Position numbers and translations under genes: made by a program. Of a stretch of 64,000 nucleotides of DNA, positions 1 through 54,239 are shown one piece after another; the stretch's first letter is position 1, and every line of letters starts with the position of its first letter. The DNA comes from Owenia fusiformis (Eukaryota; Annelida; Polychaeta; Sabellida; Oweniidae). A model generated the notes under the pieces. That model was not told where the DNA came from, did no database searches, and worked only from the letters and a program-made list of their open reading frames with translations. The stretch is taken from NCBI GenBank assembly GCA_903813345.2, contig CAIIXF020000001.1, positions 48,687,885 through 48,751,884 of the forward strand. The letters run 5' to 3'.

Positions 1-1989
1 GAATATGCCATACACTGCAGGTGAGTATGGCATATTCACCCATATCACAAATACTGCGCAACCATGAATGTATGCCATATACCACGTATACCGACGTACT
101 GTCGATCATGCTGCTCCAGGAATAATGAGTCATCTGTACAAAGCATAATCAAGGTGGTAGAAGAAAATGAGAACCCATTTAAGATTGAAATTTTGATAAT
201 TAGCCATCTTGATTCTCAAGGGATCAATTTCTCCAACTGTATAATAACATGGAAGTCGAAGATGATAATAAGCTCCATTAAATACTTACTATGGAGGTGA
301 TGACTTTGCTGGGGTTTCTTAACTCTTCTATATACAGCTAGGGATACAATTATTTTCTGTACAAAGTACAATCAGTTCCCTTGATACTATGTGAAGTATC
401 GGGTGCTAGACTAGCAGTGAAACATTATCTCCAATTCCTTAGGGACAATAGGGCCGAAGCCAGCTTTGGTTCAGTGGGGGTTTGATCGCCAAAACATTTT
501 TGGTTTTCAGTCAGGGGGATGCAACTCTGGCATAAAAAAAGCTAAAAATTAAGATCTATCTTGAATTTTACAAATCTTGATTCAACTTCCTTCAAAATAG
601 GGCTAGAAGCTTAAAATAAAAAGCATTTAAAAACTCTTCTTCTATCTCATGGTTATATTTTTATTGGTTATGGGGGGGGGGGGGGTGCGATCCCATTGCA
701 CCCCCTGGCTAAGCCTATGGACAAGATGTATTATTTTGACATAAACAAAACATACACATCTTGTTATGTTCTACAACTACAACTAAACAATTTATGACAT
801 ATATACAATATGAAGTGTGCAAACTGCAACCAGGCTGTGTGAAACTCTGGCTCTTAATCATTTGGCGTTACAATTTGTTATTATATAGCTAATTATTTGC
901 AGCAACAATAGGAGTCCCGTTGCAGTTTACATGGACCCTATACTATAAAGCATGTACACCCCCTCTATAAGTTTGGCAACTGGAAGTTATTATATGATAG
1001 CATATCAAAGTCTGTCAATGTTTAAAACTTGATTATGTTCCTTATTACCACATTTCAGATACTTCGATTTCATATGCCAAAAATAAACAGACTTTAATAA
1101 GTGATTCAAAGGGGTTTCAGTTGCCAAACTTATGATGGGAAGTGCTATCATTCATAAACATAAACTATAACTACATGAACAACATTAGGAAAGAATGGCA
1201 CCCGAAATACAGTTTTGAAAAATGTTATTAGTACACATACATGTATTTCCAATTGCTGACCACACATGATCTAAATGGTTTTATGGTTTATGGCAATGAT
1301 AAGCTGTAAAAAATATAAAATGATAGATAATGAATATGTTTAGCATATTATGATGTCACATATAGTGTTCAGATTTATTTAGAATAACACTTTTTGCTAT
1401 AATGATACATATTTTCTATTTGACCCTAGCAAAAAGTTCTGAAGTGTAAGGTGCCACGCCCCCTTTCTTGAATTTTCAGGGGAAGGGTAAGAGAAAAATC
1501 AGAAAAAATAAATGCATGCACTTTTTATTGAAACTTATGCAGGAAATATTTGCTAACATCATCAGTGAAGTTTTCAATCAGGTTTTATACACCATAGGCC
1601 CTTACTGTTTTTTAAATGACTGATTAACTATCGACTGATTAAGAAATTTTGAGAAGAAATTATGTACTTTTAGGGACAAATTATCCCATATCTCTACCAA
1701 ATTTTGTTGGATAAGACCCAAACTTTCAGGAATTCTTCATACATGCCTTATTGATATACTAACAATGTTTCATAACAATTGCAATATCCTGAAATGAGAT
1801 ATTAAATAGTTTCAAGCATATGGTCAAACTCCGACTCGAAAATGATAAAATTTGCTGACTCGGCACTTTTGAGCCTGCTTTGCAAGGGTTCACAAACTTT
1901 TTTTTACATGCCTTGGGGTCCCCTACAAGAATCTAAAGTCAAATTGAATCTAGGTGTTTTGGACACAAATCGCCTTGGCCGTAGCACTA
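1..1989 (-). repeat. Long dispersed repeat, copy A, carrying a LINE 3' tail
   Basis: This stretch matches 16987-19106 along its whole length in the same orientation; sampled stretches look about 95% identical by eye. It begins before the window edge. Its right part, read on the minus strand, is the last roughly 28 codons of a non-LTR reverse transcriptase ORF (about 1989 down to a stop at 1906-1904), followed leftward by its 3' untranslated region. Homology to copy C stops at about 1989, just after GTAGCACTA. A roughly 130-bp segment present in copy C (about 17292-17425) is missing here near position 308, between short matching sequences, which suggests deletion. A small TIR element is nested at 448-718. 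Confidence 0.85.
448..718. mobile_element. Small TIR element with poly-G and 5-bp target duplication (in copy A)
   Basis: The left end reads ATAGGGCCGAAGCCAG and the right end CTGGCTAAGCCTAT, an imperfect inverted repeat. The pentamer GGACA flanks both ends (443-447 and 719-723). The interior is non-coding and includes a run of about 14 G near 671. It shares its end motif (GCCAG), G-richness and 5-bp duplication with the elements at 43057-44083 and 51374-51560. It was present before copies A and C duplicated, because both carry it with the same GGACA flanks. Confidence 0.75.
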
Positions 1990-17040: not shown

Positions 17041-19106
17041 TGCGCAACCATGAATGTATGCCATATACCGCGTAACACTTACTGTTGATCATGCTGCTCC
17101 AGGAATAATGAGTCATCTGTACAAAGCATAATCAAGGTGGTAGAAGCAAATGAGAACCCATTTAGATTGAAAATTCTGATAATTAGCCATCTTGATTCTC
17201 AAGGTTTCAATTGCTCCAACTGTATAATAACATGGAAGTCGAAGATGATAATAAGCTCCATTAAATACTTACTATGGAGGTGATGACTTATGACATCAGA
17301 AAGAGTTTATCATAAATATCAAGAATACTTGACTGGTTGAAAGAGATGCTAAAAGATAAAGTGAAAGTGAAATTGATTCCAATATTGAGATTTTAAAAAT
17401 CTATTTCTCTGTTTTGGTGCATAAATACAAAGAAGGTTACTTTGCTGGGGCTTCTTAACTCTTCGATCTACAGCCAGGGATACAATTGTTTCCTGTACAA
17501 AGTACAATCAATTCCCTTGATACTATGTCAAGTATCGGGTGCTAGACTAGCAGTGAAACATTATCTCCAATTCCTTAGGGACAATAGGGGCGTAGCCAGC
17601 TTTGGTTCAGTGGGGGTTTGATCGCCAAAATTTTTCGGTTTTCAGTCAGGGGGATGCAACTGTGGCATAAAAAAATCTTGATTCAACTTCCTTCAAAATA
17701 GGGCTAGAAGCTTGAAATAAAAAGCATTTAAAACTCTTCTTCTATCTCATGGTTATATTTTTATTGGTTATGGGGGGGGGGGGGGTGGGGGTGCGATCCC
17801 ATTGCACCCACCCCTGGCTAAGCTTATGGACAAGATGTATTATTTTGACATGAACAAAACATACACATCTTGTTATGTTCTACAGACTACAACTAAACAA
17901 TTTATGACATATATACAATACGAAGTGTGCAAACTGCAACCAGGCTCTGAGAAACTCTGGCTCTTAATCATTTGGTGTTAAAATTTGTTATTATATAGCT
18001 AATTATTTGCAGCAACAATAGGAGTCTTGTTGCAGTTTACATGGACCCTATACTATAAAGCATGTACATCCCCTACATAAGTTTGGCAACTGAAAGTCAT
18101 TATATGATAGCATATCAAAGTCTGTCAATGTTTAAACCTTGATTATGTTCCTTATTACCATATTTCAGATATTTCGATTTCATATGCCAAAAATAAACAG
18201 GCTTTAATAAGTGATTCAAAGGGGTTTGAGTTGCCAAACTTATGATGGGAAGTGCTATCATTCATAAACATAAACTATAATTACATGAACAACATTAAGA
18301 AAGAATGGCACCCGAAATACAGTTTTGAAAAATGTTATGAGTACACATACATGTATTTCCAATTGCTGACCACACATACCCTAAATGGTTTTATGGTTTA
18401 TGGCAATGATAAGCTTTAAAAAATATAAAATGATAGATAATGAATATGTTTAGCATATTATGATGTCACATATAGTGTTAAGATTTATTTAGAATAACAC
18501 TTTTTGCTATAATGATACATATTTTCTATTTGACCCTAGCAAAAAGTTCAACAACTGAAGTGTAAGGTGCCACGCCCCCTTTCTTGAATTTTTAGGGGAA
18601 GGTAAAGAGAAAAATCAGAAAAAATAGATGCATGCACTTTTTATTGAAACTTATGCAAGAATATTTACTAACATCATCAGTGAAGTTTTTAATCAGGTTT
18701 TATACACCATAGGCCCTTACTGTTTTTTAAATGACTGATTAACTATCGATTCTGATTAAGACATTTTGAGGAGAAATTATGTACTTTTAGGGACAAATTA
18801 TCCCATATCTCTACCAGATTTTGTTGGATAAGACCCAAACTCTCAGGAATTCTTCATACATGCCTTATTGATATATTGACAATGTTTCATTACAATTGCA
18901 TCATCCTCAAATGAGATATTAAATAGTTTCAAGCATATGGTCAAATTCCGACTCGAAAATGATAAAATTTGCTGACTCAGCACTTTTGAGCCTGCTTTGC
19001 AAGGGTTCACAAACTTTTTTTTACATGCCTTGGGGTCCCCTACAAGAATCTAAAGTCAAATTGAATCTAGGTCTTTTGGACACAAATCGCCCTGGCCGTA
19101 GCACTA
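16987..19106 (-). repeat. Long dispersed repeat, copy C, carrying a LINE 3' tail
   Basis: It is a direct copy of 1-1989, offset by about 17 kb. Its minus strand carries the same LINE C-terminal codons and 3' untranslated region. It keeps about 130 bp (17292-17425) that copy A lacks. Homology with A ends at the same base pattern, GTAGCACTA (19098-19106), after which the flanks are unrelated. Confidence 0.85.
17584..17827. mobile_element. Small TIR element with 5-bp target duplication (in copy C)
   Basis: The left end is ATAGGGGCGTAGCCAGC and the right end CTGGCTAAGCTTAT. GGACA flanks both ends (17579-17583 and 17828-17832). It is the counterpart of 448-718, with small internal differences around the poly-G run. 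Confidence 0.75.
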
Positions 19107-43026: not shown

Positions 43027-43056
43027 TATTGACACGTACTTTGACTTATAACCACT

Positions 43057-44083
43057 CATGCCCGTAGCCAGCTTTTTGTAAGGGGGGCTCGAACCCCCCC
43101 CCCCCCCCCTAAAAAAACCGCCCCCCCCCCCAAAAAAAAATTCCCCTTGCTAAACCAAGCCCCTTTGTATTGTAAAGGACAGTGGCGGATCCGGAAGCTA
43201 ACAAGGGGGGCCCACACTTCAAGTCAGGAAAAAATATCCGCGCGTGCGCGGAAAAACTTTTAAGGGCCCTAAAACCCAGATTTGGGCCAAAATTTAGAAA
43301 ATCTATGGCACGTTTTTTGAAAATTTGGCCTCACATTGAAAAAAATAAGGCCCAAAAAGGTCAAGTAATGCCCAAAAAGGCCCACTGAAGAGGCCCTACA
43401 ATATTTTTACGCCAACATATTTTTCTGGGCCCATCCTAGGGCAGCGCAGAAAATTATTTAGGGCCCTAAAACCAAAATTTGGGCCTAAATTTTGAAGATT
43501 TATGGCCCTTTTTTGAAAATTTAGCCTGAAATTGAAAAATAAGGCCCAAAAAGGTCAAGTAAAAAGGTCAAGTGAAGGCCAACTAAAGAGGCCCTACAAT
43601 ATTTTTGGCCCAACATTTTTTTCTTGGCCTATCCTAGGGCCGTACATAAAATCTTTTAGGGCCCTTAAACCAAAATTCGGGCCAAAATTTTGAAAATTTA
43701 TAGCCTGTTTTTTTTATTAAATTTTATTAATTATTTATTAAAGTAATGCCCCAAAAGGCCCACTAAAAAGGCCCTGTAATATTTTGGGCCAACATTTTTT
43801 CTGGGCCCATCCTAGGGGGAGATGGCCCCATGCCTAAAAAAACAGAGGGAAAGGGGCACAAATATGTCAGCGAAAAAAATTGGGCCAAATTTTGAAAAAT
43901 AATGCCCAAATTCGAAAAACAATGCACAGTAATGCCAGTTTCTTAATCTTAATTGCCAAGTGAATGTGGGGAAGAGCAAGTTTTTCTTCAAGGAACCAAA
44001 AAGGTAGGTCCACTTTTTTTTAGGAGATATCAGGGGGGGGCTCGTACGAGCCCCCAGAGCCCCCCCCCCTGGCTACGGGCCTG
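43057..44083. mobile_element. Poly-G/C-rich TIR element, 1027 bp, 5-bp target duplication
   Basis: The left end CATGCCCGTAGCCAGC and right end, reversed, CAGGCCCGTAGCCAGG define the TIR. CCACT flanks both sides (43052-43056 and 44084-44088). Removing the element restores a normal array unit reading through ACCACT into AATATTC. The interior holds three tandem units of about 195-200 bp starting at GGGCCCTAAAACC (about 43265, 43458 and 43657), very long C and G runs, and AGTGGCGGATCCGG at 43181. The last phrase resembles a hAT terminus and may mark a further nested insertion. No transposase is seen. Confidence 0.85.
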
Positions 44084-44237
44084 CCACTGCAATATTCTTA
44101 AAACATAACCATGGAACATCGGACAGCATCATTTAGAATTAGAAGTATTTTACTTATGATCACTGGAATATCCTTAAACCATAATTAAGAAGTACTTTTA
44201 CTTAAAAGTATATGCTTAAATATTATCAGTGAACATA

Positions 44238-51368: not shown

Positions 51369-51373
51369 TATGC

Positions 51374-51560
51374 CAGGCCCGTAGCCAGGATTTGCCAAGG
51401 AGGGTTCACTTTTTGAAAAATTCCAGGGGAGTTCACTTGTGACAATTTTGGTCCAAAATGGCCAAAATCACTTAAAAAGTGCTCAGAATGGTGAAAAACG
51501 GCATGATTTTGAAAGATGTTTTGGCCAGCAGGGGGGCGAACTCCCCTGGCTACCGGCCTG
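51374..51560. mobile_element. 187-bp element of the CAGGCCCGTAGCCAGG family
   Basis: The left end CAGGCCCGTAGCCAGG and right end CCCCTGGCTACCGGCCTG are inverted. TATGC flanks both ends (51369-51373 and 51561-51565). The interior has AAAATGGCCAAAATCACTT and a short G run. It is a short relative of 43057-44083. Confidence 0.85.
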
Positions 51561-51838
51561 TATGCTGTAATGTTTTAGTTTTCCCGACCTTGTGAGCTCA
51601 TAATACATAATACTTATAATACTTATCCTGAAGACACTTAGTGTTTATCGACAACTGTGACAACATTTTATGCTCGTTTGTTTGGATTATTGTGTATGAT
51701 GATTGAAAAATCTAGTGTCAGGAAAATATAACTTTTATGAGTTTTTAGTTGCAAGAATATATTATGTTACTATCGTAACGTGGTAATCTCTAATGTATGT
51801 ATGTAATCTCTTCTAGAGTAAAGTGGTTTATATATATA

Positions 51839-53515: not shown

Positions 53516-53560
53516 CAGGCCCGTAGCCAAGGGGGGGGGGGTCCTGGGTAGAAATTATTT
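53516..53560 (+). mobile_element. Solo left end of the CAGGCCCGTAGCC family
   Basis: CAGGCCCGTAGCCAAGGG is followed by a run of ten or more G. I found no matching right end downstream, so the copy is truncated or its right end is lost. Confidence 0.65.
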
Positions 53561-54239
53561 CAAAACCATGCAGTTTTTTATCATTCTGGGCTCTTTTCGC
53601 ATGGATTTTCACAAAAACTGTCAAAGAGCAACTGAAACCTTGTGAATCAGGATGACCAGGAGGGGAGAGGGCGTTGATCCTAATGAACCGAAATCACTCA
53701 ATTTTAACCAGTTGGGTAAAGCATACAGTATAATGGAAGTGAGAGCCCTTGGAGAAATTATGCTTGGTAGAAAAACGCCTTCACTAAGTACAGGCCATTA
53801 GTTATTCCCCAGGTGAACCTTCAACCCAATTTTGTGACTGATATACATTGATATAAGAATCACATGGGATGCGAATCAGATCATTTGCTCTATCAGCAAA
53901 TCCAATAAATATTCACTGAGGATCTCATTCATTAACAGAAATCATCCATTCTTATTTTCGAAACAAGTTTCAGAAGTGACGATTTATACATTGAATGATT
54001 CCCTCACTAATATATTGCTTCTATCTTCGTTAGCCTTTTCAATTATGAGTCACACATGATGGCGTTGTTTACAGGTTCTACTTACCATTTTAATTGTTTG
54101 ATTTCGTCTCTTTGGGGAGGCCCTCGTTCAAAAAATCGAACGTATAATTTGATGAAACAAATGTAAAAAGCTTTGAAATGAAAAATGCCAGAGTTTTCTT
54201 CTAATTGCTATCCTAACATCCAGTAGATTGTTTCCGTAG

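Follow-up and report, generated by a model that had tools for sequence, protein, structure and literature searches.

Probable hAT5-type non-autonomous transposons with mainly 5-bp target duplications in Owenia fusiformis

The window analysed here, 64,000 nucleotides of Owenia fusiformis contig CAIIXF020000001.1 (positions 48,687,885 to 48,751,884), carries non-coding elements whose terminal repeats have the consensus CAKGSSCGTAGCCAG and whose target-site duplications (TSDs) are 5 bp long. An earlier note on this DNA left their assignment open, and the question is which superfamily of transposons they belong to. By comparison with the group description of hAT5, they very probably belong to the hAT superfamily as non-autonomous, MITE-like elements of the hAT5 type.

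Elements of the window and their target duplications

The first element is a non-autonomous hAT5-type element of the approximately 1-kb type, read directly on the plus strand at 43057–44083 (CATGCCCGTAGCCAG...CTGGCTACGGGCCTG). It is flanked by CCACT on the left (43052–43056) and on the right (44084–44088), exactly as the earlier note described, and ends in a 15-bp TIR of which 14 of 15 positions are paired. About three internal tandem repeats of 198 bp lie at 43253–43817. Genome-wide, the 1-kb type is represented by at least 107 matching pieces, and an exact 5-bp TSD is found in eight of eight related copies of this type. The 1-kb-type copies L001–L008 span 976 to 1718 bp, a range that may be explained by variation in the number of 198-bp repeats.

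The short MITE of the window (187 bp, plus strand, 51374–51560; CAGGCCCGTAGCCAGG...CCTGGCTACCGGCCTG) was likewise read directly, and the TATGC duplications reported for it are present at 51369–51373 and 51561–51565. The assembly comprises 498 Mb in 525 contigs, and a genome-wide count of exact copies of the 16-mer CAGGCCCGTAGCCAGG gives 4,020 (1997 + 2023), far from chance, as the reversed control occurs not once. The claim that these are real transposons with shared ends and G/C runs was right. When a complete short copy is defined as an exact 16-mer pair with 155–185 bp between, the genome contains 635 of them, the 16-mer being exact at both termini. These ends begin with CAG and thus have the hAT form, a CAG start being typical of hAT ends. 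The median divergence from the consensus, computed with alignment gaps ignored, is approximately 3% for 57 short copies (56 sampled copies and that of the window); the copy in the window is approximately 11% off the family consensus. A truncated copy of the short MITE lies on the minus strand at 53516–53598 with right end CAGGCCCGTAGCCAAGGGG...; its partner end was looked for and not found.

TSD lengths were tabulated for 56 complete short copies on contig C1, a sample that includes two copies with shared flanks (L022 and L116), probably representing one insertion. An exact 5-bp TSD is present in 38 of the 56, compared with 0.075 expected when flanks are shuffled among copies, and an exact 6-bp TSD in six (about one in nine; 0.014 expected from shuffled flanks). 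Other exact TSDs are rare, with 4 bp in two copies and 7, 8 and 9 bp in one copy each. The 5-bp length claimed by the earlier note prevails among genomic copies, with 6 bp also present and 4, 7, 8 or 9 bp rare.

The third MITE type (449–719, plus strand) has mutated termini in the window (TAGGG.../...CTATG), and its borders were set from its relatives. The family ends are CAGGGGCGTAGCCAG and CATGGGCGTAGCCAG, relatives starting with CAGGGGCGTAGCCAG and finishing with CTGGCTACGCCCATG, and they place the element at 449–719 with GACAA as its TSD (444–448 and 720–724). A 5-bp duplication is thus present at this site as claimed, but the sequence originally given, GGACA at 443/719, is one base off and was dropped in favour of GACAA. 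A second copy is found on the plus strand at 17585–17828, with GACAA at 17580–17584 and 17829–17833. Eleven of the 12 best genomic matches share the flanks of 449–719 on both sides, and the twelfth shares them on the left only, indicating that one insertion has been copied inside a larger repeat. The copy at 17579/17828, listed by the earlier note as the duplicated copy, is this same insertion and does not constitute independent evidence. The larger repeat, which hosts the MITE and its flanks at both places in the window, occurs at many genomic places. Across 12 copies of the third type, exact TSDs of 5 bp are found in seven, 6 bp in two and 8 bp in one, with two left blank; the 5-bp count rises to 8 of 12 once L158 is included (one mismatch, flanks read by eye). 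For L157, no duplication was seen at the flanks.

Transposase-coding relatives in the same genome

A genome search yields 138 matches to the hAT dimerisation domain, and three coding families are relevant here. Family A is represented by L049, one of these matches, which lies in a 4,630-bp (4.63-kb) element on the minus strand within C12:31119300–31126300; the element has TIRs CAGGCGCGTAACCAGG and CAGCGGCGTAACCAGG and the TSD CTTTT. Its left TIR is identical to CAGGCCCGTAGCCAGG at 14 of 16 positions. Two long open reading frames in L049, 405 and 356 aa in length, match DUF4371 (E 8e-14) and Dimer_Tnp_hAT (E 4e-13). Since a middle stretch bearing YDGAGNMSG lies between these two frames, L049 likely holds a three-exon gene spanning the hAT catalytic motifs, with predicted exon borders. 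The dimerisation region also gives a weak match to the Hermes transposase in the PDB (E about 0.003). L049 is possibly a complete autonomous hAT copy.

L049 is nested in a MITE of the third type. When its flanks are joined with a single CTTTT, they align unbroken to that MITE, which provides empty-site proof of the 5-bp duplication.

Family B (L050–L066 and L043) comprises at least 16 copies, mostly more than 90% identical, with a hAT C-terminal exon. Its TIRs are CAGTGGCGTAGCTACG on the left (four left ends) and CAGAGGCGTAGCTAGC on the right, and its duplications are ACACC, ACCCA and TATAG (5 bp) together with one 4-bp ATTG. The family is young, multi-copy and non-autonomous, the measured copy being approximately 1 kb long; its members keep only the last hAT transposase exon, the retention of which across so many copies is curious. 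Family C also carries a hAT C-terminal exon; its right TIR is CAGAGGCGTAGCGTGG, and one copy is flanked by TGGTG and another by the 4-bp CATA. The core CAGN(G/C)(G/C)CGTA(G/A)C is common to the ends of families A–C and of the MITEs. The non-coding elements themselves, taken by the earlier note as a single family, instead form at least three non-autonomous families with a common TIR motif.

The search for a coding copy with the same TIR as the short MITE spanned part of the genome. It returned the family A element with its closely similar left end, but no transposase between exact CAGGCCCGTAGCCAGG ends near approximately 60 hAT dimerisation-domain or related matches, where up to about 2 kb downstream was scanned. 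Around the DUF4371 matches, too, no transposase with exact CAGGCCCGTAGCCAGG ends was found, just other TIR variants or unrelated MITEs, and no coding copy of the third type was found among the hAT-related loci scanned. Given the part of the genome that was covered, this absence means little. Two candidates were rejected: the right-end match of L066 turned out to be a separate short MITE, and in the hAT families of the 16–82 profile class (L033, L035, L041, L042, L096 and L097) homology stops near ...CAGCCTCTA, without the MITE TIR. The TIR letters used as a literature query returned unrelated papers only.

Assignment to hAT5 and rival explanations

TSDs of hAT elements are usually 8 bp long, and elements with TSDs of 5 bp and 6 bp received the names hAT5 and hAT6 in 2007 (Kapitonov and Jurka, Repbase Reports 7:1188–1191, as cited in PMC12730594). 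As the groups are characterised in that citation, the elements studied here resemble hAT5 in their 5-bp TSDs and in the hAT transposase of their TIR-sharing relatives, and differ in being non-coding and in having a minority of 6-bp TSDs; the likeness is one to the group description. With hAT6, as cited there, they share hAT membership and the 6-bp class of the sampled copies, but their main TSD length is 5 bp. A further comparison is offered by Mar (PMC3517528), a Drosophila family of non-coding MITEs that are also of hAT origin, but of another host and family, placed by its authors in the Buster group of hAT.

Because hAT5 is an already described group, and because hAT-coding families with like ends and mostly 5-bp TSDs reside in the same genome, the assignment that looked open is now largely settled. 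The finding is real but ordinary: short non-coding copies, present in thousands, that match a known group. Since no transposase lies between exact CAGGCCCGTAGCCAGG ends in the loci scanned, the hAT link of the short MITE is drawn from the likeness of its TIR, the length of its TSDs and its residence in the same genome.

With three sites from a single window, cherry-picking is conceivable, and the TSDs might then be chance matches around repeats. The shuffled-flank control refutes this for the short MITE, and the eight of eight 1-kb-type copies and the empty site at L049 add to the case, leaving chance with virtually no probability. Transib (RAG1-like) elements come to mind with the 5-bp TSDs of the short MITEs, as Transib is the best known eukaryotic superfamily with a TSD of this length. 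Transib ends start with CACWRTG, whereas the elements here begin with CAGG or CATG, so the view that the ends are unlike Transib was correct. The end core is moreover common to hAT-coding elements, and the short MITEs include 6-bp duplications, which to our knowledge Transib does not make; we consider a Transib origin highly improbable. Slightly more room, yet still very little, is left for an undescribed superfamily that mobilises the CAGGCCC family and has converged on hAT-like ends and 5-bp TSDs. It would account for the lack of a transposase between exact CAGGCCC ends in the loci scanned, but that lack carries little weight in a search of part of the genome, and the CAGGCCCGTAGCCAGG TIR is identical at 14 of 16 positions to the left one of the hAT-coding L049, which has the same TSD length.

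Within the preferred hAT5 assignment, the ends and TSDs suggest that the CAGGCCC family was mobilised by a DUF4371-type hAT transposase of the hAT5 group. Supplied in trans, such an enzyme would bind the approximately 15-bp ends and probably also the adjoining G-rich subterminal palindromes, excise the element and join it to target DNA, where cuts placed 5 bp (sometimes 6 bp) apart would give rise to the duplications.

Identical ends yield both 5- and 6-bp TSDs, and TSD length alone therefore separates hAT5 from hAT6 poorly. One hAT lineage with variable TSD length (5 bp in approximately 78% of exact cases, 6 bp in approximately 12%, and singletons of 7–9 bp) would imply that cut spacing is not fixed and that the split of hAT5 and hAT6 by TSD length is partly artificial, a reading that we put forward tentatively and hold at somewhat below even chances. 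The very large copy sets offer material to measure how strictly hAT5-type transposition keeps to one spacing of the target cuts. The consensus ends CAKGSSCGTAGCCAG also serve annotation, as they let thousands of copies be labelled hAT5-like instead of unknown.

Each of the three MITE types shows, at its right end, the TIR, a G-run and a palindrome in that order (GGGTTCGGGCGAACCC, GGGGGCTCGTACGAGCCCCC and GGGTGCGATCGCACCC). These are candidate transposase-binding or hairpin-forming sites. A G-run with a palindrome (GTTCG..CGAAC, GCTCGTACGAGC and GTGCGATCGCAC) beside the TIR thus recurs in one layout although the sequences are unrelated.
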